Part shown: positions 1 to 44,531 of the stretch, one piece after another
How the letters are laid out: each line of letters begins with the position of its first letter
Position numbering within the stretch: the first letter of the stretch is position 1
Source: a bacterium
GTDB lineage: Bacteria; CLD3
Reading direction: 5' to 3'
Length of the DNA: 51,853 nucleotides
Assembly: GCA_020850775.1 (NCBI GenBank)
Contig: JADZEA010000110.1
Coordinates: 1-51,853, forward strand
The notes under the pieces: generated by a model
Told to the model about the DNA's origin: nothing
Seen by the model: only the letters and a program-made list of their open reading frames with translations
The model's database searches: none
Made by a program: the position numbers and the translations under genes

Positions 1-50
1 GGTTTTCACTTTTAGCAAAAGCCAATCATTTTTACCTTTGTACGTGTAAG

Positions 51-1103
51 TCAAATTCTCTCCAAAGTTTTGTTTGTTGCTTCTAAAATTTTCTCAATTT
101 CTTCGTTTGTCAGTCCGGGATAAAATGGAATTGAAACGCCGTTTTCAAACCATTTCAGAGTTTCAGGAAAATCCTTGTCGTTTTCACCAATCATTCTGTT
201 TAACGGGTAAAAAACTGCGTCTCCACACGAAATTCCGTGCTTTTCCATTTCTTGACAAAACCATTTTGCCGAAAAATCACCTCTAAAAACAAACCGATAA
301 AAAATTGGTTCAACCTCTTGTTCCTGTTGAACTTTAATGATTTTTTCAGATTTTATGTTTTCACTGTAAATTTTATGAAGTGCCTTTCGTCTTTCAATAA
401 AAAAATCTAATTTTTTCATCTGAACGTTTCCAATTGCAGCCGCAACGTTTGAAAGTTTGTAGTTAAACCGAAGTTTCCCGTCAGTTTTTCCGCCGTAGTA
501 AGTTCTGTCTTTCACTTCTTCAATAATTTTTTCGTTGTTGGAAACAACCATTCCACCGTCAATTGAAGTCAAAACTTTTGTCGCATAAAATGAAAAAACT
601 GAAACTTCCGTGAAAGAACCAACTTGTTTTCCTGAAATTTTTGCTCCAACCGATTGTGCACAGTCCTCAATTACAGGAATACCCAAAGAGTTGATTTCAT
701 TAATTTTACAAGGGAAACCAAAATGATGGGGAGCAATTACACAAGCAGTGTTTTTAGTTATTTTTTTCTCAAGCGAAACTAACGAAAAATTGCAGTCGTA
801 CGGATTTACGTCAACTAAAACAGGTTTTGCTCCAACCATTTTTACAGAGTTCAGTAAAGCAGCACAAGAAGAATTTGGAAGCAAAACTTCCGTTTTTTCA
901 CCAACTCCAAGCGCTAACAAAGCAAGGTGAAGTGCAGAAGTTCCGTTTACAACAGCAGCCGAAAAACGCATTCCAACATAGTTTTTTACAGCATTTTCAA
1001 AATTCTCAATTTCGTTTCCAACCGCAAGCTGACCTTTTTCAAACAAAGATTTTAACGTTTCAAACTCTTCAGAACTTAAAGATGGTTTTGAGTGAAAAAT
1101 CAA
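51..1103 (-). CDS. DegT/DnrJ/EryC1/StrS-family PLP aminotransferase
   Basis: This is a 350-residue fold-type I PLP enzyme of the DegT family, which typically transaminates keto-sugar nucleotides for surface polysaccharides. Visible family features are GTSALHL (54-60) binding the cofactor phosphate, EDCAQS (146-151) whose Asp147 faces the pyridine nitrogen, and FYATK ending at Lys176, the Schiff-base lysine, followed by the usual DGG. The length is slightly short for the family (about 360-400). It starts with TTG: the frame has no earlier ATG, and an AAGG sits 6 nt upstream. The sugar substrate cannot be told from sequence. No other polysaccharide gene is adjacent on its left within the window, so its operon partners may lie outside it. 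Confidence 0.9.
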   Translation of the reverse strand: MIFHSKPSLSSEEFETLKSLFEKGQLAVGNEIENFENAVKNYVGMRFSAAVVNGTSALHLALLALGVGEKTEVLLPNSSCAALLNSVKMVGAKPVLVDVNPYDCNFSLVSLEKKITKNTACVIAPHHFGFPCKINEINSLGIPVIEDCAQSVGAKISGKQVGSFTEVSVFSFYATKVLTSIDGGMVVSNNEKIIEEVKDRTYYGGKTDGKLRFNYKLSNVAAAIGNVQMKKLDFFIERRKALHKIYSENIKSEKIIKVQQEQEVEPIFYRFVFRGDFSAKWFCQEMEKHGISCGDAVFYPLNRMIGENDKDFPETLKWFENGVSIPFYPGLTNEEIEKILEATNKTLERI

Positions 1104-1128
1104 TTTTTACCTTCAGTTTTTACCTTCA
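1104..1128 (-). repeat. duplicated Shine-Dalgarno leader of the DegT gene
   Basis: On the minus strand the 12-nt unit TGAAGGTAAAAA occurs twice in tandem directly before the TTG start, so two AAGG ribosome-binding sites lie 13 nt apart. The downstream copy is at the right distance from the start. The upstream one has no start codon in a usable frame. It looks like a local tandem duplication of the translation-initiation region. Confidence 0.6.
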
Positions 1129-1227
1129 AATCTAAGAAATCTTTACCTTTTTTAATGCAATTAAAATTCTTAAATTTTTCAAAACTAAAGCAGGGAAAAA
1201 TAACTTTCAATGGTTTGTGAAAAACAC

Positions 1228-1797
1228 CTAAATTTCTACTTCTGACCAACTTTTGAAAAGAATGGATTTTATGCCACTCTTTCGTGCATTTTCAACGTTT
1301 TCAAGTTTGTCATCAACGAACAAAATCTCGTTTTTTTTATTAATTTTTGCTAAGTTTTCAAAGGCGGTTTCGTCAGTTTTTAGTTTGCCTGTAACAAACG
1401 AAACAATGAAATTTTCAAATTTTCGCAAAACCTCAAAATTATTCAGTGCAAAAGTAAAATGCAAAGGGTCTGTATCAGAAAACAACCACAGATGCCAGTC
1501 TAAAGGGGTTTTTTGCAAAAAATCGTTTGCGTCTTTTCTCAAAGTAAAAATATTTTGCCAGGCAAAAACGAAGGAATTTTTATCAAGTTTTGGGTTTTTA
1601 AGCCAATCAAGAGAAAAATTTACAAACTCGTTCGCACCTAAAAAACCTGTGTCTAACTTTTGTTTGATTTCACCTGCACACAAAGTTTGTGAAATTTCTT
1701 TTGTAGAACGGACCGAACCTTCAGCGACAAAATTTATGAATTTTTCAAAGTTTACGTCAATGATTACGTTTCCGAGGTCAACAAGTAAAATTTTCAT
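1228..1797 (-). CDS. HAD-superfamily phosphatase, YihX-like
   Basis: This is a 189-residue haloacid-dehalogenase-type hydrolase. Motif I reads VDLGNVIIDVN, with nucleophile Asp7 and Gly where many HADs have the second Asp. The same D-L-G-N arrangement is seen in E. coli YihX (glucose-1-phosphatase). Motif II is LFSDTD, motif III the lysine in GKLKTDE, and motif IV FVDDKLENV with paired acidic residues. It acts in the cytoplasm and has no signal peptide. It lies between the alanine racemase and the DegT gene on the same strand, 51 nt after alr. The substrate is unknown, though a sugar phosphate is a reasonable guess. Confidence 0.85.
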   Translation of the reverse strand: MKILLVDLGNVIIDVNFEKFINFVAEGSVRSTKEISQTLCAGEIKQKLDTGFLGANEFVNFSLDWLKNPKLDKNSFVFAWQNIFTLRKDANDFLQKTPLDWHLWLFSDTDPLHFTFALNNFEVLRKFENFIVSFVTGKLKTDETAFENLAKINKKNEILFVDDKLENVENARKSGIKSILFKSWSEVEI

Positions 1798-1848
1798 AAG
1801 ACCTAACTAATTTAAAAAAATGGGTTTAGCTAAAAAGTCCGGCGTGTT

Positions 1849-2961
1849 TTAGTGATTTTTGTAAACACGCGGGACTCTTCTTGCGAGCCAGCAAGTAATT
1901 TCGTAAGGAATTGTTCCAACAAGTTTTGCAATTTCATTGATTGTAATTTCTTCGCTACCCTGCTTTCCGTACAGCACGACTTCGTCGCCAATCTGGATTT
2001 CTGAGTCGTTTCCGAGATTAACCATTAATTGGTCCATACAAATTGTTCCGACAACCGGAAAACGCTTTCCACGAATCAGAACGCAACTTTTGTTGGATAA
2101 AAGTCTCGTGTAACCATCTCCGTAGCCGACGGGAATTGTTGCAATTTTGCTTGTTTCCATCGTTTGGTAGGTCAAGCCGTAACTAATTCCTTCACCTGCT
2201 TTAACCTCCTTTAAAAACACGACTTTGGATTTAAAAGACATCACAGGAATTAAATCCAAAGTTGGAATTTTAGTTTCCACCGGAGAAATTCCAAAAAGCA
2301 TAATTCCTGCTCTCACAAGGTCAAAAACTGATTTTTGATGATTAATGATTCCGCCACTGTTTGCAATGTGGAAAAATTTAGTTGAAATTTCAAGTTCGTT
2401 TGCAATTTGCCGGATTTCACAGAAACGTGAAATTTGCAGTTCTGTAAAACTTTTATCCTCCAAATCCGAAACCGCAAAATGCGAATAAATTCCTACAAGT
2501 TCAATATTTTGCAGTGTTTTAATTTTAGAAAGAACGAACCTTGCTTTTTCAAAATTAATTCCAATTCTGTTCATTCCCGTATCAAATTTCAGGTGGATTT
2601 TAGCTTTTTTGCCAAATTTTTCAGCTTGTTTGTTTACAGAGTAAGCAAGCCCAAGCGAGGAAATCGTAATTTCAAGGTCGTGTTCAAGGAATTTTTGAAC
2701 CTGACTGAATAAAACTCCGCCAAGGACAAGAATTGGAACAGTAAAACCGTTTCGTCTTAAAAGCAAGCCTTCTTCAAGAAAACCAACTCCAAGGTAATCC
2801 GTTCCGGCTTCAACCAAAGTTTTGGAAACCTGAATTATTCCGTGTCCGTAGGCATTTGCTTTAACGGTTGCAATTATTCCTTTTTGATTGCACAATTTTT
2901 TTACGACTTCAAAATTGTGTTTCAAGGCATTTAAATCTATTTCTGCGTAAGTAATTCTCAT
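1849..2961 (-). CDS. alr: alanine racemase
   Basis: This PLP enzyme interconverts L- and D-alanine for peptidoglycan. The 370-residue length is normal. The N-terminal TIM barrel carries the cofactor lysine Lys34 in TVKANAYGHG, and the C-terminal beta domain carries the second catalytic base Tyr261 in GISYGLTYQT. The conserved DTGMNR (128-132) and CMDQLMV segments are present. The start ATG is the only reasonable one, matching the usual N-terminus (ITYAEIDLNALKHN). It is transcribed with the downstream HAD gene and is divergent from rplU. Confidence 0.97.
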   Translation of the reverse strand: MRITYAEIDLNALKHNFEVVKKLCNQKGIIATVKANAYGHGIIQVSKTLVEAGTDYLGVGFLEEGLLLRRNGFTVPILVLGGVLFSQVQKFLEHDLEITISSLGLAYSVNKQAEKFGKKAKIHLKFDTGMNRIGINFEKARFVLSKIKTLQNIELVGIYSHFAVSDLEDKSFTELQISRFCEIRQIANELEISTKFFHIANSGGIINHQKSVFDLVRAGIMLFGISPVETKIPTLDLIPVMSFKSKVVFLKEVKAGEGISYGLTYQTMETSKIATIPVGYGDGYTRLLSNKSCVLIRGKRFPVVGTICMDQLMVNLGNDSEIQIGDEVVLYGKQGSEEITINEIAKLVGTIPYEITCWLARRVPRVYKNH

Positions 2962-3034
2962 TTTTCAGGCAATTTTTTTAGAAATTTAAATTGAAGTTAG
3001 CTTTTTTAAGAGAGATTTTTTACTTTTTTTTGGC

Positions 3035-3065
3035 TTGACAAAGAAAAAATTTTAAATTAACTTCG
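3035..3065 (+). promoter_or_regulatory. rplU-rpmA promoter, Bacteroidota type
   Basis: TTG (3035-3037), 20 nt, then TAACTTCG (3058-3065). This fits the TTG-N19-21-TAnnTTTG pattern seen repeatedly in this window. The first element also reads TTGACA. The predicted transcript starts about 50 nt before the rplU ATG. Confidence 0.65.
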
Positions 3066-3123
3066 CAGTCCTTAATTCTTTTAGATTAAGAAAAATTATG
3101 CATAAAAATTTTTGGAGATAAAA

Positions 3124-3432
3124 ATGTACGCAATTGTTGAAATCGCAGGTCGCCAATTTAAAGTTGCTGAAAAAAAAACAATAGAAGTTCCCCGCCTACA
3201 ATCTGAAGAAGGTTCTACTATTGAATTTGATAAGGTTCTTTTTTATTCTGGTGACAAAACAGAAATTGGTAATCCAACTGTTGACGGCTGTAAAGTTGTT
3301 GCCACCGTTAATGAACACGCAAAAGATGACAAAGTTATCAGTTTTAAGAAAAAAAGAAGAAAAGGTTACAAGGTTAAAAAAGGGCATCGCCAACCTTTAA
3401 CTAAAATTACTGTAAACAGCATAACTATCTAA
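3124..3432 (+). CDS. rplU: 50S ribosomal protein L21
   Basis: A 102-residue L21, which binds 23S rRNA. The N-terminus MYAIVEIAGRQFKV and the basic KKKRRKGYKVKKGHRQ segment are diagnostic. The start is set at the ATG with GGAG 7 nt upstream. An in-frame TTG at 3112 overlaps that ribosome-binding site and would add four residues foreign to L21. rpmA follows 15 nt later, the normal bacterial pairing. Confidence 0.98.
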   Translation: MYAIVEIAGRQFKVAEKKTIEVPRLQSEEGSTIEFDKVLFYSGDKTEIGNPTVDGCKVVATVNEHAKDDKVISFKKKRRKGYKVKKGHRQPLTKITVNSITI

Positions 3433-32874: not shown

Positions 32875-35800
32875 TTATTTTTTCGAAAGAATTTCTTTTA
32901 CTTCTTTTGCACGTTGTTTTCGTTTCGCAAGAACTTCTTTGCCAAGTTTGTTTTTCATTCCCGAAGAGTTTGACAAAACGTTCTGGTTTTTCTGAAAAGC
33001 CGGGCTTGTTACGTTTGAACTTCCTAAAGCCGTTACAACGTAAAAATAAGTGCTTTCAACTAAGTTCGTGTCAGTCCACTGAATTCCTGCAACCAAAACG
33101 TCTTCGTCGTTCACGTTTGAGCCAACGGGAACAGCTGTTTCGGTGTTTAAATCAGGAGTTGTGCTTCTGTAAACATTAAAACCTGTAATCGTCAGGCTTG
33201 GGTTGTTGATTTCATCCCAGGAAAGCTGAATTTGAGTTCCCGATTGTTTGATTTTTAAGTTTGTTACAAGCGTGGTTCCTACAGAAACAGAAATCGGGTC
33301 TGAAAACTCGCTTTGGTTTCCGGCAAAATCTGTTCCGCGAATTTTTACAAGGTAGTTTGCGGGAAAAACGTTTGTAACAGTCGTGTTGTTTGTGTTGTAA
33401 TCAGAAAGCAGAACGTCGTCCGAAGAATCCCAAACCAAAGCATTGCTAAAATCAGAATGCGTAGCGAAGTAAACCTCGTAAAAAGCAAAATCAACGTCGT
33501 AAGAAGGTGTCCAGCCAATTTCAAAACCTGATGAAGTTGTTGAAAGAACAACTACAGTTTCAACTTTAATCGGTGGAAGCGAAATCAATGCGGTTGAGCT
33601 TCCAAGTAAAATATTGTCAACTTTCCAAAAATCTCCGCTGGTAACCTGGTAACGGAAACGCGCTTTGACAGAATCCTCGCCTGCAACAATGCCTGAAACA
33701 TCCAAACTTACGTTTCCTGAAGTTGAGGAATTGTAGTAAGCAACCTGATTTGGATAAGTTGTTCCACCGTTGGTTGAAATTTCGACGTAACAGCCTTCAG
33801 GAGCAATTTCTGAGCCTGCACTGTAATCGTGGTAAAACATCAGGCTGACGCTTGTAAAAGTTGAGAAATCGTAAGTTACACTTTCAAGGCTTGCCTCAAC
33901 GAGTGAAGCAGTTTGGTTGTTTTTGTTTGAGTTTGGAGCCGTTACGAGTCCCGAAATTTTTGCGAACTTGTTTCCGCTTCCGTCGTCAGAAAGCGTCCAG
34001 GAATTCCCCGAAACGGGAACGTTTGCCTGCCAGCTTCCGGAAACGAGGTTTGTTTGCAAGTCAAAAGTTGAGTAGTAAGCAGGAGTGGTTGAGTTTCCGC
34101 TTACCGAGAAAGTTTTTGCCGCATCGTTACAATCGTTGCTGTGGATTGTGATTAGTTCAAGCAAAGTTTGTGTGCTTTTTGGGTTCCAGGTGATTTCAAG
34201 AACTAAGTTTTGGTTTGGTAAAATTTCAAAAGTTGCAGGATTGATTAAGAAATCGGCGGAAGGCAAATCAATGTCTGTAACGTCTAAAGTATCGTTTCCG
34301 TTGTTAAGAACCGTAATTGTTTGTGTTGTGTTTGAGCCGTTAAAGATGGTTCCGAAATCAACACCGGGAGCAGAAAGCGAAATTCCTGAACCGTTGTAGT
34401 TTAAAATCACGGGAACTAAAGTTTGCGGGTTTGTCAGGCTGTTTGAGTTAATCACAATTGTTGCAGAGTAGGTTCCGTAATCGGCTGTTACGCTTCCGAA
34501 AGTTACCAAAACAGTGTCCTGGCTTGAAGGAGCGACAGTTCCGGAAGTTTTGGATTCGCTTACAAGCGAAGAAGCCGAAGAAATCGTGTAAGTCATTGTT
34601 CCCGTTCCCGAGTTTGAAATGAAAAGCGTGTCTGTTTGGGTTGCTTCACAGGTTGCAAAAGCCTTTGAGAAAGAAGTTGGCAAAACGGAAATTTGTGCGA
34701 AAGGAGTTGGACCAAGTTCTTTTTCGGTTGAGTTGTCATCGTTGTCAAATTCTGTTGGATTTGAGTTTACGATTTCGCAGTAAATCGTTGTTACAGTGTC
34801 AGGAACAACCCAATTCAGGCTTGAAGTTATTGAGTTGTTGTTCAGAACGGAAATCAGGTTCGTTCCAATCAAAACAGTGTCAAGTACGTCGGTTACGTAG
34901 TAAAAATTAAGCGTCGCGTTGCAATCTAAATCACCTTCATTCAGGATGCTTGCAGTAATCGTGATTTCTTCGTTCAGGTTTGGCACAGAATTGCTGAAAT
35001 TTAGATTCGTAAACAGCAGGTTAGCGGATTCGCCGACGATGACTGCACGGCTTGCTTCGTTGTTTAGCTCGTCGGATTCGGCAACCGTGCCACCAAAATC
35101 TACAAAACCACGAATCACGTGAGCGCCAACCAGTGCAGAGTTCCAGGTTGAAATTACTGCAACTGTTGTGTCTTCTCCGGCAGCTAAACCGGAAACGGGA
35201 ATTGTGCTTCCAAGTTGAATGTCGTCAACTTTGCAAACAACGGAGAAAGCACCTGCGTTAGCATTTCCGATGTTTTCAAAAGAAAGATAAATTCCGATTG
35301 GTTCGTTAGGATCCGGGTTTAGTTCTGTTGGTGAAACGTGTTGAGATAAAATTCTCAGGTCAGGAGCGTAATCAATCACCGTAACAGGAACAATCAGAGT
35401 GTTGTTGGTTTCGTTGCATTCTGTAAAAGCATTTGGAAAATCTGTAACCATTGTTACAGTGTAAGTTCCTGCTGCCGGGAAAGTGTAAAAAACGCTTTGT
35501 CCCGTTGCGTGTGAGTAGATGTTTCCGCGTGTCGGGGTTACGCTGAGTTCAGTATCGCTTCCGACGTAAACATCGCCGCTTCCGTCGTTCACGTAAAACC
35601 TTGTTTCCACATTGGTTCCCGTGTAAAGTCCGTGGTTAAAAAGTGCTACGAGAAGGTTTACGTTGTCGCCCGTGTAGTGAGTTAGTTCCCAAAACATCGG
35701 AGTGTAGGGAAACTCACCAAGCGAAAACTCCCAGCAAAGCGGGTAAGTTGCGGAGTTATCCGAGTTGCTTGATTCGTTGATTGTGTCGTTCGGGTCAAGC

Positions 35801-38800
35801 GTAACCGTGTAGTCGTTATCGCCAAAAACGGGAGTAGAAGTCGTTTGTGAAAGTGTTACGGATTCGCCAACCGCCAAACCGCTTGTGTAAGTTTGTAAAA
35901 TCGTTGTTGTTGGAATGCTTGCACCGGAAGTCTGAAACCTGACGTCAACCGGAGTTCCTGAAGGAATTGCGGATTCGCCGTTGTTTCTGATTGTTGCAAG
36001 CAAGCTCAGCGGGTCGCCGGCATTAATCGGAGTTGCCGGAGAAACATCAAGGTCAAGGTAACCAATGTTCAGGTTTGAAACAGGTAAGTAAACATCAATT
36101 AAACCTGTGTAAACATTGTTTGTTTCGTCGTACTCCGAAACGGAACCGCTTCCGATTGGTTCGTCAACTTTGATTGTAACGGTGTGTGTTCCAACAGTCG
36201 TGAAAATGTAGTTGAAACTTTGTGTGGCAAGATTGCAGGGGTCGTAAAAAGAACAGGTTGAAGCGCAGCCACCAATGTTTGTGTAGTTCAGGACAGCGAC
36301 GGGAATTGGGTCAGAATCAACGTAAACGTTTGCAGTAAAACTTCCTGAAGCTGCTCCGCCGAGATTATCAACTCTGACGTTGTAGGAGTAGTTTTGGTTC
36401 ACGATGCTTCTTCCGTAGATGTTGTTGCCGGAAGGTGTTAAGTCAGGTTGGTTTGGTAAAACTCTGACGGCGCAGGAAGAGTTGTTGTTGCTTTCGGTTG
36501 TTTCCGTAACGATGTTTGTTTCGTCAGCGTAGCAGTAAACGTAGCTTGTCCCGATGTTGTTGAAGGTTGTTGAAAAGTTAAAACTTTGGGAAGCTCCTGC
36601 TGCAAGCCCTGAAATTAACTGACTTCCGATTAGTGCTGAGTTTTCGTCGTAGTACCTGAAGTAAAAAGCACCTGAAGGAACACAGCCACTGTTTGTAACG
36701 GTTGCAGTTCCGTTGACGGGATTTCCCTGAATTACTTTGTAACAATCAAGGGAAATGCCTGAAGTCAGGTCTGTTCCGCAGCTTGGAGGAGCAATTACGG
36801 TTAAAGTCAGGGGACCAAAATTTCCTGTCAGTGTGAAATCGGTTACACTTCCAACGATTGTGTAGGTTCCGGGAGCAGGAGCGTAAAAGTAAAAGTCAAA
36901 ATCGCCGTTTGCGTTTGTGTAGGCTGAAAAAGTGGCGCCTGTTTCAGCGATTTGAGCTGAGACGGTTGCTCCAGAGACGTCAAAATCGCTTCCGAAAACG
37001 TCGTCGTACTGTGCGTTTCCGTAGCCTCTGACTGAGTAGCCCTGGTAAGTGTTGGAAGGAGAGAGAGCAGCAGTTACCACAATCGCGCCGGGAACGACGT
37101 AATCACCAACCGTAACGGGACGAATCGCAAAATTATTTAGTTCGTTGTCTTCAACAAGGTCGTTGTTTGCGTCAATCACAACTTTCATCGGGATGTAGTT
37201 TTCGTAATCAAAAGAACGGAACCAGGAAACCGTTGTTTGAGATTGGTAAGAAAGCGAGGTAATGTTTGTTGAGGCAACCAAATTATTTTCTTCGTAGAGC
37301 TCCACGACAAAATTTTGGGCATTGAAATCGGAATTGTTGTGAATAGTTGCAGAGATTGTGATGATTTCGCCCATTTCCGGGTTTGCGTTGCTGAAAGTGA
37401 TGTCGTTGGCAAAGATTGAAACGTCAAGAAGGTCGTTGGAGACAAAAGGTCCGCCCAAAATGCTTGTTGCTGTGTTTCCGCCGGCAGCGTCCTGAACGAC
37501 GATTTGGGATTTCCAGTTTTCACTTTCGCTTAGTTGTGTAAAAAGAACGTAACGTTTTCCGTTTGTTGGGTCTGTGTCGGCAAGATTTTCTTCAACCATT
37601 GAGTAAGAGAGGTCTTGAGAATCAATAAAATTGCCGTTGCCGTTAAAATCAAGCAAAACTTTCGGGTAACCGGAAGCAGGTAAATCGCCGTCTGCGTCTG
37701 TGTAGTCAATTGCAAACTGGAAAGTTGTCAACGCAGAACCGGTATCGGGTTCAACGATTGAGTTTACGAAGCCGGTTTGGTTTGTAAAAGAAAGCGTTGG
37801 GTTGTTGTTGGAAAAAGAACTGTTTCCGTTAAGCGGTGCAGTTGAAGTTGTGAAACAAGGTGTGCCAACAAAATTTCCATTGTTTCCGTTGATTGTAGCG
37901 TCTAAGACGGGATTTGTGATTGTTTGGTTGAGGTTGTAGCAAGCAAGAAGTCCCGTTTCGTTTCCGTTAAGAACTGAACTCATTTCCGTTTGGATTTCTG
38001 TTTGCGTTTTAGCAAAGTTCCAGATTCTCAGTTCGTCCAAACTGCCGGAAAAGTATTCTGAGTTTCCCCAGAAACCAGCGCCGAAAGCTTGTGTCTGAGA
38101 GGTCAGAGCGGTTCCTGAAAGGTTTGTCTGAAAATCCTGAACTCCGTTGATGTATCCTTTCCAGGTTGTTCCGTCAAAAACGTAAGCGATGTGGTACCAG
38201 GTGTTTGGTGTGAGAGAGATTGAGCCGTTTCCGCTTGTAAAAGTTCCACTGTTGGTTTTTCCGTGGTAACGGATGTAGTTTCCGCCGGCAGCAACAGCCA
38301 TTCCAAAATCTACAAAACCGCTTCCGCTTCCGTAAATCCAGCGCCAGGTGTTTGTGTTTGTGTAGTTGAACCACGCTTCAATGGTAAAAGCTGAAGAGTT
38401 GTTTAACAAGTTCGGTACCTCTATTTTGCTTGAGCCGTTAAAACAAGCCATTTTACCGCCGGAAGAACTGATTTCCAGTGTTGTTGAGGCAGTTGAGTTT
38501 GCTCCCAAAGTGTCAGTAACTCTCAGAGAAATCGTGTGGGTTGCAGGGTAAGAAAGGCTTGAAACAGTTGACCAGTAAACTGTTGGTGTAGCTCCCGTAA
38601 CGTCGCCGAAAATTCCGTCGTTGTTCAAATCCCAGGAGTAAGAAGCGATTGCGTCGCCGCAGGAAGCGTCGTAGTCTGAAGAAGCCGAGCCATCTAAAGT
38701 AAAATCGTTCAATGCGTTAACGGTGTAAGGTCCGCCTGCGTTTGAAACGGGAGAGTTGTTTCCGACACTAACGTAAACGGTGAAATTGTCTGTGTCTGTG

Positions 38801-40134
38801 CTTCCAAAATTATCGGTTGTTCGGACAGTTGCGTTGTAGTTTCCGAAAGAAGAGTAAGCGTAAGTTACAGAACTGCCTGCACCGGTAAGGTCGTAGCTCC
38901 CGTTTCCGTCAAAATCATAATCGTAAGAAATGATTGTTTTTGCTGCGTTTGGGTGGAACGAAGCAGAAGAGTTAAAGGTTAAGGTTTCACCACAGGAAGC
39001 AGGGTTTGGAGAAACGTTCAGGTCAGCAACCGGATCGTCGGGTAAGATTGTGATTGTTGAGTTTGCGGTTCCGGTCAATCCTTCGTTATCGGTTGCACGA
39101 ACTTTGATTGTGAAAGGAACGTTCAGAAAGTGTGGCAACGAAGCAAGCAGCGAGGCTGAGATTGTTGGGTTTACTCCTGTTGCGTCGTCGTAAAATCCGT
39201 CGTTATCCAAATCCCAGTCAAAACTCAGAGCGTCTCCGCAAGCAATGTTCGGGTCGGTTGTTGCCGTTGCGTTCAGGTTTAAACTTGAGTTTTCTACGGC
39301 TGAGTAGGGACCACCTGCGTTTGCTGCCGGAGCTGTTGCACCGTAGTTCCATGAGAAATTTTGTGAAGCGTAAGCATAAATTCCCAGGGAAGTAGTGATT
39401 CTGAGGTTAATCACAGAAGTCAAAGCTGAGATTGGGTAAGAAACGACTGCACCAACATTGTCAACAATAAAATCGTTGTTAAAATCCCACTCGTAGGCGG
39501 TGATGCTTCCGATGCTTCCCGCTGTTGAAACTGAGCCGTCCAAGGTAACGGTTTCGCCGCAGGAAGCGGAATAAGGATTAACCGTAAAAATTGCTGTTGG
39601 CGGAACGTAGGGAATTCCGGTAAAACTTAGCTCGTCAACCAGGATTTTTCCGGAAGGAGCAGTATCTTTTTCTAAAGTTACTTTCAGGTAGCGGGCAAAA
39701 AGGTTGTTTGAAAGTGGGAGGTTTAGCGTGTTGCGGGATTCGTCTGAGTAAGTTCCGTTTATCCCGATTAGTTCGCTGAGTGTGAAATTTGTTCCGTCGC
39801 TGCTAAACTGAATGTTTAGAGTATCAGCAATTACGATTCCTTCGGAAGAACTTTTGTAGGTTCCGACAGTAACGTCGCTGAAAAGCCAGGTTGAGCCGAA
39901 ATCAAAAATGATGGTTGGATTTCCTGAGTTCCAGCCGACCCATTCGTAGGCGATTCCGTTTCCAAGGTTTGTGTTAAACGGAGTCGTTCCGATGTTTCCA
40001 TCGGTAAGTTGTGAACCTGTTTCGTCAGAGTAAAAATCTGGTGAACTCTGGTAAGTGTAGGAAACAGGTGTTACGGCTAAAAGTTTTGTTGTCAGAACAA
40101 AAACGGTAGCCAAAGTTTTTAGTGAATTTTTCAT
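32875..40134 (-). CDS. giant secreted multidomain protein (discoidin-like, PKD, LamG, CARDB, FN3)
   Basis: 2419 residues. A signal peptide (about 1-20) comes first. About 28-178 is a discoidin (F5/8 C)-like domain (IIFDFGSTWLFSDVTVG). About 180-560 holds four PKD-type domains, each with Asp-rich D-x-D-x-D-G turns (WDLDNDGFYDD, YDFDGNGSYD). About 565-770 is a LamG/concanavalin-like domain (SAFTIEAWFNY, WYHIAYVFDG, SLDELRIWNFAKTQTEI). Next come many CARDB repeats marked by E-x-NN (VEDNELNN, VTETTESNNNS). ASH/DUF1573-like strands follow (GVDFGTIFNGSNTTQTITVLN), then two FN3-like domains. The end is a short very basic tail (AKRKQRAKEVKEILSKK) with no type IX sorting domain. It probably acts in adhesion or surface binding. 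The bases look richer in G+C than neighbours. Confidence 0.9.
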   Translation of the reverse strand: MKNSLKTLATVFVLTTKLLAVTPVSYTYQSSPDFYSDETGSQLTDGNIGTTPFNTNLGNGIAYEWVGWNSGNPTIIFDFGSTWLFSDVTVGTYKSSSEGIVIADTLNIQFSSDGTNFTLSELIGINGTYSDESRNTLNLPLSNNLFARYLKVTLEKDTAPSGKILVDELSFTGIPYVPPTAIFTVNPYSASCGETVTLDGSVSTAGSIGSITAYEWDFNNDFIVDNVGAVVSYPISALTSVINLRITTSLGIYAYASQNFSWNYGATAPAANAGGPYSAVENSSLNLNATATTDPNIACGDALSFDWDLDNDGFYDDATGVNPTISASLLASLPHFLNVPFTIKVRATDNEGLTGTANSTITILPDDPVADLNVSPNPASCGETLTFNSSASFHPNAAKTIISYDYDFDGNGSYDLTGAGSSVTYAYSSFGNYNATVRTTDNFGSTDTDNFTVYVSVGNNSPVSNAGGPYTVNALNDFTLDGSASSDYDASCGDAIASYSWDLNNDGIFGDVTGATPTVYWSTVSSLSYPATHTISLRVTDTLGANSTASTTLEISSSGGKMACFNGSSKIEVPNLLNNSSAFTIEAWFNYTNTNTWRWIYGSGSGFVDFGMAVAAGGNYIRYHGKTNSGTFTSGNGSISLTPNTWYHIAYVFDGTTWKGYINGVQDFQTNLSGTALTSQTQAFGAGFWGNSEYFSGSLDELRIWNFAKTQTEIQTEMSSVLNGNETGLLACYNLNQTITNPVLDATINGNNGNFVGTPCFTTSTAPLNGNSSFSNNNPTLSFTNQTGFVNSIVEPDTGSALTTFQFAIDYTDADGDLPASGYPKVLLDFNGNGNFIDSQDLSYSMVEENLADTDPTNGKRYVLFTQLSESENWKSQIVVQDAAGGNTATSILGGPFVSNDLLDVSIFANDITFSNANPEMGEIITISATIHNNSDFNAQNFVVELYEENNLVASTNITSLSYQSQTTVSWFRSFDYENYIPMKVVIDANNDLVEDNELNNFAIRPVTVGDYVVPGAIVVTAALSPSNTYQGYSVRGYGNAQYDDVFGSDFDVSGATVSAQIAETGATFSAYTNANGDFDFYFYAPAPGTYTIVGSVTDFTLTGNFGPLTLTVIAPPSCGTDLTSGISLDCYKVIQGNPVNGTATVTNSGCVPSGAFYFRYYDENSALIGSQLISGLAAGASQSFNFSTTFNNIGTSYVYCYADETNIVTETTESNNNSSCAVRVLPNQPDLTPSGNNIYGRSIVNQNYSYNVRVDNLGGAASGSFTANVYVDSDPIPVAVLNYTNIGGCASTCSFYDPCNLATQSFNYIFTTVGTHTVTIKVDEPIGSGSVSEYDETNNVYTGLIDVYLPVSNLNIGYLDLDVSPATPINAGDPLSLLATIRNNGESAIPSGTPVDVRFQTSGASIPTTTILQTYTSGLAVGESVTLSQTTSTPVFGDNDYTVTLDPNDTINESSNSDNSATYPLCWEFSLGEFPYTPMFWELTHYTGDNVNLLVALFNHGLYTGTNVETRFYVNDGSGDVYVGSDTELSVTPTRGNIYSHATGQSVFYTFPAAGTYTVTMVTDFPNAFTECNETNNTLIVPVTVIDYAPDLRILSQHVSPTELNPDPNEPIGIYLSFENIGNANAGAFSVVCKVDDIQLGSTIPVSGLAAGEDTTVAVISTWNSALVGAHVIRGFVDFGGTVAESDELNNEASRAVIVGESANLLFTNLNFSNSVPNLNEEITITASILNEGDLDCNATLNFYYVTDVLDTVLIGTNLISVLNNNSITSSLNWVVPDTVTTIYCEIVNSNPTEFDNDDNSTEKELGPTPFAQISVLPTSFSKAFATCEATQTDTLFISNSGTGTMTYTISSASSLVSESKTSGTVAPSSQDTVLVTFGSVTADYGTYSATIVINSNSLTNPQTLVPVILNYNGSGISLSAPGVDFGTIFNGSNTTQTITVLNNGNDTLDVTDIDLPSADFLINPATFEILPNQNLVLEITWNPKSTQTLLELITIHSNDCNDAAKTFSVSGNSTTPAYYSTFDLQTNLVSGSWQANVPVSGNSWTLSDDGSGNKFAKISGLVTAPNSNKNNQTASLVEASLESVTYDFSTFTSVSLMFYHDYSAGSEIAPEGCYVEISTNGGTTYPNQVAYYNSSTSGNVSLDVSGIVAGEDSVKARFRYQVTSGDFWKVDNILLGSSTALISLPPIKVETVVVLSTTSSGFEIGWTPSYDVDFAFYEVYFATHSDFSNALVWDSSDDVLLSDYNTNNTTVTNVFPANYLVKIRGTDFAGNQSEFSDPISVSVGTTLVTNLKIKQSGTQIQLSWDEINNPSLTITGFNVYRSTTPDLNTETAVPVGSNVNDEDVLVAGIQWTDTNLVESTYFYVVTALGSSNVTSPAFQKNQNVLSNSSGMKNKLGKEVLAKRKQRAKEVKEILSKK

Positions 40135-41677: not shown

Positions 41678-41720
41678 GAGTTAAACTTTTTTGAGAGAAG
41701 ATTTTTTCTTGTCCTTAAAG

Positions 41721-41750
41721 CCAGAGACTCTTAAACCAGAGGCTCTTAAA
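41721..41750 (+). repeat. tandem 15-nt repeat pair
   Basis: CCAGAGACTCTTAAA is followed directly by the same unit with one change (A to G). Each contains a small inverted repeat AGAG-N-CTCT, so the pair could bind two protein dimers. Confidence 0.6.
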
Positions 41751-41960: not shown

Positions 41961-43292
41961 ATGAAAAGAGTTACTAATTTTTTAGCTGAAAGCACAGTTC
42001 TTTTGGCGGGTTTAGTACTTGCAATTTTAGCAATGCAAAGCAATGTTTTTGCTACTACGCAGTGGTCAAGAAAGTATAAAACATCTTGTACAACTTGCCA
42101 CACAGTTTTTCCAAGGTTGAACTACTACGGAGAAAGATTTTTGAGAAATGGTTACCAGGACCCGGATTCTGATAAACCGGACGGCGAAACTTTAGGAAAA
42201 ACAAAGATTAATGATTACTTGTCAATTGATGAGTTAGGCAATTTTATTGGTCTTCGTTTGAATTTTACACCGATACAAATGAAAACAAACAGTCTTGTGA
42301 TTGATGGTAAGAAAGAAACTCAGTTCACGATTGGAAACCCGAACTGGTATCAGGTATTTTTTGCAGGCTCGCTTGCTAAAAATATTTCACTTTTTATTGA
42401 AGCGGAAAATGACGGAAAAGCGATGCATTTTAATTGGGCACATCTTGGATTTCACAATTTAGGCGGTACAACTTTAGCAAACGTTTTTGTTGGTAACGTC
42501 GCTGCGCTTGAGTTTGGAGGTTATCCAAACAGGCTTCCTCAGATTGCGGCACTTAAAGGAGACATTTTTCAAATCACTTCTTCAGGTGGAGCAAAAGCAG
42601 TTGCTGACGGAGGAAACGGTGTCGCTGACGATGTTACAGGTTCTACCGCTGCAAGACCAGGAATTATGTGGTTTGGTTACAAGGGTCCAGTTGTTGCCTG
42701 GGCAGGAATCAGTCCCGGAAGCACAGCAAAAGACAACAACGGTTTGTACCACTACTGGGGAGCTTTAAGGTTTGAAATTCCGGAATCAATGGAATCCACT
42801 TTTGAAGGCTCAAACGTTACTGCCTGGTTTTACAAAGGCGAAGATGCAACTGCAACGGCAACCAAACAAATCACTAATCCATTTACAAGACTTTCTTTAC
42901 AAGGAAACCTGAGGTTTGGTCATCTTGACATTCAGGCAGCTTACCTGACTGTTACAGAAGACAACTACTACCTGAGACCAGATTCAACTAAAAAGGACGA
43001 AAAGTACAGTGGAATTTCCGTGTTGGCAGGTCAATCTTTTGGTCAATGGCATCCTTACATCCAGTTTGATACGGTTACTTACGACGATAAAATTTTAGCT
43101 GAAGGAAAAACAGACGCCACAACAAGCAAAGAAACACCGGGAAAAGACCGAATGTTTGTTACGCCTGCAATTGGTTACTCTCTGAGAGAAAACATCAGAG
43201 TAATCGGAATTTACAGGCTTGATTTGACCAAAGAACAAAATGGTTACAAAAAATCCAACGAAGCACAGATTAACTTAAGGATGATGTTCTAA
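41961..43292 (+). CDS. Cyc2-like fused cytochrome c-porin
   Basis: 443 residues. A signal peptide (about 1-31, ending FATT) leads to one heme-c site at the start of the mature chain, Cys43-x-x-Cys46-His47. It is followed by FPRLNYYGERFLRNGY (50-65), a pattern matching Cyc2, where CxxCH is followed by F-P-x-L, G-x-x-F and G-Y. The remaining roughly 350 residues are alternating beta strands and end in Phe (NLRMMF), as for outer-membrane barrels. Cyc2 of iron oxidisers has this same one-heme-plus-barrel design and similar length. Its stop overlaps the next ATG (TAATG). I infer a conduit passing electrons across the outer membrane. Iron as donor is not proven. Confidence 0.78.
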   Translation: MKRVTNFLAESTVLLAGLVLAILAMQSNVFATTQWSRKYKTSCTTCHTVFPRLNYYGERFLRNGYQDPDSDKPDGETLGKTKINDYLSIDELGNFIGLRLNFTPIQMKTNSLVIDGKKETQFTIGNPNWYQVFFAGSLAKNISLFIEAENDGKAMHFNWAHLGFHNLGGTTLANVFVGNVAALEFGGYPNRLPQIAALKGDIFQITSSGGAKAVADGGNGVADDVTGSTAARPGIMWFGYKGPVVAWAGISPGSTAKDNNGLYHYWGALRFEIPESMESTFEGSNVTAWFYKGEDATATATKQITNPFTRLSLQGNLRFGHLDIQAAYLTVTEDNYYLRPDSTKKDEKYSGISVLAGQSFGQWHPYIQFDTVTYDDKILAEGKTDATTSKETPGKDRMFVTPAIGYSLRENIRVIGIYRLDLTKEQNGYKKSNEAQINLRMMF

Positions 43293-43717
43293 TGAAAACA
43301 TTAATTTTTTTAGGTTTGGCGGTAAGTTTTTTCCTTTGTTCGCAGCTGAAAGCGGATGAAAAAAAACTACCTGAAGGTCAAAAAATTTTCTTAAAGTATG
43401 GTTGTAACGAATGCCACACGGTTTTAGCTGCAAGCATCGGAAAATCGGATAAAAAATCAACCGACGACGAGGAAGAAGCTGCCGAAAAAGAAAACGAAGC
43501 AATTAAACCACCAGACCTTTCTAACATCGGAAACGAAAAAAAAGGTGAGTGGGTTGACCTTTACCTTAGAAAAAAAGAAGCCATCGAAGGAAGAAAACAC
43601 AAAAAAAGATTTAAAGGCAACAAAGAAGAAAAAACTACACTCGTTGAATGGCTCGGAACACTTAAAACTGTTCCTGAAGTGAAAGACACTAAAACCGACG
43701 GAAAAAAAGCAAAGTAA
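43292..43717 (+). CDS. periplasmic monoheme cytochrome c without Met ligand
   Basis: 141 residues. A signal peptide (1-21) and heme site Cys38-x-x-Cys41-His42 in a class I-like frame (GQKIFLKYGCNECHTV), with the later helix EEKTTLVEWLGTL. An acidic insert (DDEEEAAEKENE) follows the heme. The mature chain has no methionine, so the usual His-Met ligation is impossible. The only other histidine is His103 in a basic stretch (GRKHKKRF), close to where the Met-bearing loop normally sits. It should shuttle electrons between the outer-membrane Cyc2-like protein and the membrane tetraheme protein encoded next. Confidence 0.85.
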   Translation: MKTLIFLGLAVSFFLCSQLKADEKKLPEGQKIFLKYGCNECHTVLAASIGKSDKKSTDDEEEAAEKENEAIKPPDLSNIGNEKKGEWVDLYLRKKEAIEGRKHKKRFKGNKEEKTTLVEWLGTLKTVPEVKDTKTDGKKAK

Positions 43718-43743
43718 CCAACTAAAAACGAAAGTGAAGAAAA

Positions 43744-44340
43744 ATGAACACATTTTTTGGATTTTTCGGTTTGGTCGGGATTGCTCTGATTTTCATTACA
43801 ATTCTAACAAAAAAAGAAACCTCCGGCAAGGAGTGGAAATTCCTTGCCTTTTTTTCTTTTCTCGTTGTTCCCGTTTTGTTTACAGGCGGAGTGATTAATG
43901 AAAAATTGGACGCAATGCAAAAAACCGAATTTTGTGAAAGTTGCCACGTGATGAAACCTTACTTAGAATCGCTGAAAGTTGACGACGACGAGCCTCTCTC
44001 TTCCGTTCACTACAGAAACAATTACGTTAAACAGGAAAACGCCTGTTACAACTGCCACGCAAGTTACGCAATGTTTGGTGGTTTGAAAGCAAAAGCTAAC
44101 GGTTTAAAACACGTTTGGGCTTACCTGACAAAAACAAAAATTGACTCAATCAAACTTTACGAACCGTACAGTAACGACAACTGTTTACATTGCCACGAAC
44201 CCGCAGAAAGATTCCTGAAAAATGAAGACCACAACAAAAAAGAAGGTTTGCTGGCAGAAATCAAAAGTGGTAAAAAATCCTGTTTAGCTAACGGATGCCA
44301 CGACCTCGGACACTATTTTGAAGAAAAGGAGGATAAATGA
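43744..44340 (+). CDS. NapC/NrfH-like membrane multiheme cytochrome
   Basis: 198 residues. Two membrane helices (about 4-21 and 32-50) and four heme sites: CESCH (64-68), CYNCH (101-105), CLHCH (147-151) and CLANGCH (180-186), the last with four residues between cysteines as in cytochrome c3. CESCHVM carries a Met two residues after the first heme His, as in NrfH. Such proteins exchange electrons with membrane quinol. It is the inner-membrane end of the proposed outer-membrane to quinone chain. No nitrite reductase (nrfA) follows. The ATG of the next gene overlaps its stop (ATGA). Confidence 0.88.
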   Translation: MNTFFGFFGLVGIALIFITILTKKETSGKEWKFLAFFSFLVVPVLFTGGVINEKLDAMQKTEFCESCHVMKPYLESLKVDDDEPLSSVHYRNNYVKQENACYNCHASYAMFGGLKAKANGLKHVWAYLTKTKIDSIKLYEPYSNDNCLHCHEPAERFLKNEDHNKKEGLLAEIKSGKKSCLANGCHDLGHYFEEKEDK

Positions 44341-44531
44341 AAGACAAAAAAACTAAACTTGGTGGCTTGATACTTTTGATTTCTTACTTGTTGCTTTTTT
44401 CCACACTGGTAACTTCAAACGCAGTTCTCCTCGTAGTTTTAATTCCTCTTGGAATCGTTTTGCAAATCGTTGGAATCGTTTTCTGGATAGTCAGCGTTTG
44501 GCAAGATGCTTCACAAAAAGGACTGCTTTAA
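44337..44531 (+). CDS. small membrane protein, 64 residues
   Basis: Two hydrophobic helices (about 10-30 and 34-56) with charged ends (MKDKKTK; WQDASQKG). I do not recognise a family. It is coupled by ATGA overlap to the multiheme gene and precedes the operon terminator, so it may be an accessory or stabilising subunit of that complex. Confidence 0.7.
   Translation: MKDKKTKLGGLILLISYLLLFSTLVTSNAVLLVVLIPLGIVLQIVGIVFWIVSVWQDASQKGLL

Follow-up and report, generated by a model that had tools for sequence, protein, structure and literature searches.

A putative cytochrome-porin of the Cyc2 superfamily encoded in one operon with a monoheme and a NapC-family tetraheme cytochrome

Results

A compact operon of four genes lies on the forward strand at 41961-44531 of the window, the whole stretch of 51,853 nucleotides analysed here (Table 1). 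All four open reading frames are present where the initial annotation had placed them, and both of the overlaps it had named are real: TAATG (43290-43294) joins genes 1 and 2, ATGA (44337-44340) joins genes 3 and 4, and genes 2 and 3 are 26 nt apart. Five heme motifs stand in frame on a single strand inside 2.1 kb of the operon, and since a reversed-pattern control puts the chance background of the heme-motif DNA pattern at about 147 places per 3.09 Mb genome, a chance origin is excluded. The description of the locus as one operon for a barrel protein with a Cyc2-type heme domain, a monoheme cytochrome, a tetraheme cytochrome of the NapC/NrfH family and a tiny membrane protein is supported.

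Table 1. Genes of the operon and features of their products.
Feature	Position	Strand	Description	Basis
Gene 1, barrel protein	41961..43292	+	putative Cyc2-superfamily outer-membrane cytochrome-porin, 443 aa	ORF, model, Foldseek, heme-domain homology
Gene 2, monoheme cytochrome c	43292..43717	+	predicted periplasmic, 141 aa, one CNECH	ORF; PF00034
Gene 3, tetraheme cytochrome	43744..44340	+	predicted inner-membrane, NapC/NirT/NrfH family, 198 aa	ORF; PF03264
Gene 4, small membrane protein	44337..44531	+	64 aa, two hydrophobic segments	ORF; same-slot relative in L024
Barrel leader	residues ~1-31
Barrel heme domain	residues ~32-70		C43-x-x-C46-H47, PRL 51-53
Barrel 16-strand domain	residues 97-442			AlphaFold2 model
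Barrel C-terminus	Met442-Phe443
Tetraheme hydrophobic segments	residues ~1-19 and ~31-49
Tetraheme hemes	C64, C101, C147, C180		C64 in CESCHVM, C180 in CX4CH

Complex I genes had been reported about 1 kb downstream. Their position is correct (nuoA, 45499), but the proximity is not conserved at other cassettes, and no nuoB or nuoD motif was found in the sequence examined around the five others, so that complex I was ruled out as an operon partner. Between the operon and nuoA there are a moaB-like gene and an ORF of 78 aa. Upstream of the barrel gene, the intergenic region holds a 15-bp tandem repeat of 2.4 copies (41714-41750), and upstream of the operon the opposite strand encodes a secreted-looking repeat protein of 2419 aa (32875-40134) whose repeats are apparently of the PKD, LamG and CARDB types. 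The first part of the tetraheme gene contains a strong terminator-like hairpin (10 pairs, loop of 4) with a T run behind it (43825-43848), which could lower the expression of genes 3 and 4 or be a chance occurrence; two such sites were counted against 2.6 expected from shuffles.

The barrel protein carries one heme motif only (CTTCH), straight after a signal-like leader. Pfam and NCBIfam gave no family above cut-off for it, and neither its sequence nor its profile had a match among PDB sequences. The AlphaFold2 model, built from an alignment of 17 relatives (A4), has 16 strands and an N-terminal heme plug (pLDDT 79.5, pTM 0.79), which bears out the barrel first proposed from the sequence. Its nearest structures in the PDB by Foldseek are the 16-strand porins PorB, Omp32 and OmpU; OprP (2o4v, E 2e-11) and OprO (4rjw, E 2.2e-10) were also recovered, both ranking below PorB and Omp32. 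A search of viral folds returned generic porins only. Searching a collection of genome contigs with the single barrel sequence gave nothing, and a three-sequence alignment gave 19 loci.

Several of the features by which Cyc2 is recognised are present: a single N-terminal CXXCH, a PXL four residues past the heme motif (CHTVFPRL), and a length above 365 aa with a 16-strand OprP/OprO-like porin (443 aa; strands by prediction). OprP and OprO are the templates that Keffer et al. 2021 name for the Cyc2 porin (PMC8406198). The motif AXPXFAR[QK][TY] upstream of the heme, which the same authors call unique to Cyc2 (PMC8406198), is in contrast absent, since the window barrel reads ATTQWSRKY, where A, R, K and Y are kept and P, F and A are replaced. 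In its place the clade has the signature A[VTL][ST]QW[SA]RKY, nearly all close relatives reading A[VTL]SQW[SAT]RKY, and intermediate forms occur in L025 (ATSAWARKY) and L041 (ATSAFARKY). Strict-motif relatives from genomes plus one plasmid served as Cyc2 references. The similarity extends beyond CxxCH, the heme domain being 55% identical over 51 residues to that of the strict-motif protein in L062 and aligning by hhalign at 97.3% (E 1.7e-11) with a Methylocystis plasmid protein. The latter, the one protein returned by a search of plasmids for bona fide Cyc2, carries AVPSFARQT and adjoins further c-type cytochrome genes.

In a tree of 46 barrels, 22 clade members are separated from 24 other Cyc2-like proteins by a branch with support of 99/96, and the strict P.FAR[QK][TY] core is found in 11 of the 24 outside the clade. 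The barrel profile recovered five close members (E <1e-129) from 386 sampled genomes, followed by a gap to E ~1e-26 and by wider Cyc2-like proteins in 60 further genomes of the sample. All clade members of the tree set whose C-terminus is intact (20/20) end in Met-Phe or Met-Leu, against 0/24 outside, related rows not being independent so that a Fisher value overstates this difference. In the model the penultimate Met stands at the end of the last strand. Porin topology would put this residue at the periplasmic end, where the heme domain would also lie, and it is on that account a candidate second heme ligand. The "Cyc2-like" of the initial annotation was thus right as to the heme domain and the 16-strand barrel, but the defining motif is lacking and the protein belongs to a clade of its own. 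We place it in the Cyc2 superfamily, with neither identity with Cyc2 proper nor iron oxidation established.

The monoheme cytochrome is class I-like (PF00034, E 1.6e-5, above cut-off). Its relatives share the invariant residues C38, C41, H42, P74, D75, L76, H103, F107 and G109 (alignment A5), and the conserved segment GRKHKKRFKG holds the invariant His103 at the usual place of the axial Met of class I cytochromes, suggesting His-His ligation. The structural model is weak (pLDDT 69.6); its top folds are c-type cytochromes, none of them significant. Such ligation was considered as a sign of low potential, an argument that was dropped since MtoD of Sideroxydans is His-His ligated at +155 mV (PMC13390432), and ligation alone therefore leaves the potential of the window monoheme unfixed. 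The family is also found in five same-class genomes without a close barrel and, in those inspected, adjoins multiheme genes. In the same-class loci L076, L084 and L086-L088 the neighbouring protein has 13 hemes; its G002 version carries a fused cytochrome b561 domain, a possible alternative route to or from the quinone pool.

The tetraheme cytochrome matches PF03264 (E 3.5e-10; 40.3 bits against a gathering cut-off of 24.1) and falls below the equivalog cut-offs of NrfH, NapC and TorC, by a wide margin for the first two, the score for NrfH proper (TIGR03153) being 42.8 bits against 134.2. A role as NrfH in nitrite reduction was ruled out since the window genome holds no NrfA (PF02335). Four hemes had been read from the sequence; the number stands, with three CxxCH and one CX4CH (CLANGCH). 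Heme I is CxxCHxM in 6/6 aligned sequences, as also in NrfH and ImoA (PMC13390432). A search of the PDB with the tetraheme profile gave no matches. Instead of the single N-terminal anchor of the NapC/NirT/NrfH family, two hydrophobic segments precede heme I, and a simple hydropathy scan finds the same in 12 of 13 loci, namely the six cassettes described below together with L134 and L140-L145. Compared with the quinol dehydrogenases NapC, NirT, NrfH and CymA, the protein agrees in family and heme number, and with NrfH in heme I, but differs in its two N-terminal segments, its CX4CH fourth heme and a genome without NrfA.

In all 13 loci the gene directly downstream of the tetraheme encodes a small protein that has hydrophobic segments, as a rule two; it starts between 7 nt before and 66 nt after the tetraheme stop. 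The 64-aa protein of the window is 39% identical over 62 aa to that in the same slot in L024, and is probably, from its constant position, a subunit of the tetraheme cytochrome. Small NapE/TorE proteins assist NapC-type cytochromes (PMC6134056), and by analogy this tiny membrane protein, encoded beside such a cytochrome, may serve in the anchoring or assembly of its neighbour; it differs from TorE/NapE in having two hydrophobic segments rather than one and no PF06796 match.

The tetraheme subfamily is set apart by a gap in E-values, and its neighbours vary. In G090 the tetraheme, its small partner and the same monoheme are joined to a decaheme cytochrome and an MtrB_PioB porin. In G361 (L144) the tetraheme adjoins NapA (above the NapA cut-off), and the small protein there is fused to a CRP-like nucleotide-binding domain. 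Octaheme cytochromes are neighbours in G119 and G256, 13- and 19-heme ORFs in G381 and multiheme genes in G138. Given this variety of MtrAB-type, NapA and octaheme neighbours, the tetraheme unit appears to be a general quinol dehydrogenase whose outlets can be exchanged.

The same four-gene order was found in five other, distant loci: L024 (Fidelibacterota), L020/G070, L026, L028 (Myxococcota) and L033/G051 (Myxococcota), the sequence of L033 stopping inside gene 4. The homologues are mostly 30-55% identical to those of the window, the L024 barrel reaching 55%, and in L028 the monoheme slot is taken by a cytochrome of another, Met-type family. Over the six cassettes the identities of barrel and tetraheme correlate (rho 0.62). 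Monoheme and tetraheme identities are also correlated (rho 0.73). With the cassette in six loci, the barrel gene does not stand alone throughout its relatives. The set is nevertheless modular and not obligatory, judging by gene neighbourhoods, as many clade barrels occur without the tetraheme: barrel and monoheme are found without it in L030, L036, L037 and L039, the barrel has none of the cassette partners in L027, L029, L032, L034, L035, L038 and L041, and the tetraheme pair is found without a barrel in seven genomes. In L025 (7986-12696) the genes after barrel and monoheme code for a pentaheme cytochrome and a molybdopterin oxidoreductase of 806 aa, and all of these may form one respiratory unit. 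In L040 (7965-12569) the gene next after a clade barrel encodes a decaheme cytochrome and is itself followed by that of an MtrB_PioB porin (E 2.5e-84), so that a Cyc2-like barrel adjoins an MtrAB-type conduit. A close barrel is absent from the nearest relative of the window genome, which is of the same family, and from other same-class genomes, and is present in only 1 of 24 genomes of the G070 phylum; this patchy distribution suggests lateral transfer.

Discussion

The layout described here is, by analogy, that of the Mto pathway of Sideroxydans lithotrophicus ES-1 (MtoAB, PmcA/MtoD, ImoA) with a Cyc2-type barrel in place of MtoAB (PMC13390432). An outer-membrane conduit, a periplasmic monoheme and a NapC/NrfH-type tetraheme are clustered in both, and the putative His-His ligation of the window monoheme would be shared with MtoD. 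The two differ in that a barrel with one heme stands where the decaheme MtoA sits in MtoB, and in the two hydrophobic segments and small partner of the window tetraheme. The operon does not contain the decaheme cytochrome and MtrB_PioB porin by which MtrAB, MtoAB and PioAB are recognised, and such a conduit was not found elsewhere in the window genome, with no PF11854 match above cut-off and a single weak 20-bit match on contig 150.

With the Cyc2 proteins of Mariprofundus PV-1 and Acidithiobacillus and with Cyt572, the window barrel shares the single N-terminal heme followed by PXL and preceded by a conserved R-[KQ]-[YT], the homology of the N-terminal region, the length and the predicted 16-strand barrel. 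It is distinguished by its own motif, its separate clade and the clade-specific C-terminal Met, and also by its company. In the Cyc2 pathways of the literature, Cyc1, rusticyanin or HiPIP receives the electrons, which then reach oxidases or complex III types (PMC7029218, PMC5566968, PMC10654088), whereas the partners here are a shuttle and a NapC-type tetraheme, not Cyc1, rusticyanin or an oxidase. No description of the four-gene operon was found in the open-access literature searched, most subscription literature lying outside it.

On balance, we lean towards the view that the four genes form a self-contained trans-envelope conduit whose net flow in this organism is outward. Anchored in the inner membrane together with the two-segment small protein, the tetraheme cytochrome would exchange electrons with menaquinone, and the soluble monoheme would ferry them across the periplasm. 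The single heme of the barrel would plug the periplasmic end of the 16-strand pore, where it would donate electrons to, or accept them from, a small redox partner dissolved within the pore. In the outward direction, menaquinol would be oxidised and electrons would exit to an acceptor at the outer membrane. The direction is suggested by the genome, which holds futalosine-pathway menaquinone genes (PF02621 twice) and no UbiG above cut-off, menaquinol at about -80 mV (PMC13390432) lying below the neutral Fe(III)/Fe(II) couple at about 0 +/- 100 mV (PMC8406198). RuBisCO, the carbon-fixation route looked for, was not found in the window genome, a citrate synthase-like gene was recognised by eye in the window, and the tetraheme subfamily serves the NapA reductase elsewhere, all of which also favours outward flow. 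Of the two directions that the initial annotation had allowed for, uptake and disposal, the genome context moderately favours disposal. Against an outward conduit it must be noted that the characterised Cyc2 relatives are Fe(II) oxidases, with +208 mV measured for the neutrophilic one (PMC8406198), that the barrel often occurs without the tetraheme and may thus have a partner other than a quinol dehydrogenase, and that in L028 the slot is filled by a monoheme of a different, Met-type family.

The same conduit could run inward, the barrel oxidising dissolved Fe2+ or another small donor and the monoheme and tetraheme passing electrons to the quinone pool. We consider this rather unlikely, even though the heme domain is homologous to that of Cyc2-type proteins, Cyc2 oxidises Fe(II) (PMC8406198), and the layout parallels the Mto cluster of conduit, monoheme and ImoA tetraheme, for which a function in uptake is assumed (PMC13390432). 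The window genome also has genes for an aa3-type oxidase and NapG/H, and these oxidase and Nap genes are possible sinks. A menaquinone-type genome, however, makes transfer from Fe(II) to quinone uphill, the lack of RuBisCO and of the defining Cyc2 motif counts further against uptake, and described Cyc2 pathways feed high-potential carriers or oxidases and not a NapC-type protein (PMC7029218, PMC5566968).

Extracellular transfer need not be involved at all if the barrel is a redox porin fed by quinol, reducing or sensing a small solute as it enters the outer membrane (such as an N-oxide, nitrite, a metal ion or an oxidant), and so a respiratory or detoxifying reductase at the membrane. The narrow 16-strand pore would let in small solutes only, in G361 the tetraheme subfamily serves NapA and in G119 and G256 it adjoins octaheme cytochromes, and the barrel and monoheme of L025 adjoin a pentaheme and a molybdopterin oxidoreductase. 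With a single heme and no recognised catalytic site, and with a barrel of the same clade beside a decaheme and an MtrB_PioB porin in L040, such a function appears improbable. It is more doubtful still that barrel and monoheme on the one hand, and the tetraheme and two-segment protein with other partners on the other, are separate systems sharing an operon by convenience. Each pair does occur without the other, the former without the tetraheme in L030, L036, L037 and L039 and the latter without the barrel in seven genomes, but all four genes are together in six distant loci, the monoheme and tetraheme identities correlate, and G090 keeps the monoheme-tetraheme pair with another conduit.

Extending the outward conduit beyond this organism, one may speculate, with more doubt than confidence, that the operon represents a module of wide distribution that moves laterally, with a one-heme porin of the Cyc2 superfamily as the outer-membrane outlet of a dedicated menaquinol dehydrogenase and the barrel heme ligated by the clade-specific C-terminal Met of the last strand. 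If true, this would be a minimal three-cytochrome respiratory export chain, with a two-segment anchor on the tetraheme and a new small membrane subunit. The occurrence of the tetraheme subfamily with an MtrB_PioB porin (G090) and with NapA (G361) argues that the inner module serves several outlets, one inner-membrane unit being combined with a Cyc2-like barrel, MtrAB or Nap. The small membrane protein that accompanies the tetraheme at every locus examined is pointed out here. Gene order links a separate clade of the Cyc2 superfamily with a quinone-linked cytochrome, which gives an electron path that is concrete and testable. The gene cyc2 serves as a marker of iron oxidation, while most homologues are from uncultured organisms and uncertain in function (PMC8406198), and the clade is a reason against taking each Cyc2-like barrel for an iron oxidase.

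Other electron-transfer genes were observed in the cassette-bearing genomes. The window genome has two clusters of Rieske-like and cytochrome b genes with a protein of eight heme motifs, on C95 and C23 (L149, L150; 488 and 884 aa), and in G051 (L021) a similar Rieske-cytochrome b-octaheme cluster is found some 4 kb away from the cassette. The window genome also encodes a DMSO-reductase type II (NarG/Nxr-like) alpha subunit on C72 (L156), and a similar molybdoenzyme cluster, recognised by eye only, precedes the L024 cassette by about 5 kb (21-3288).
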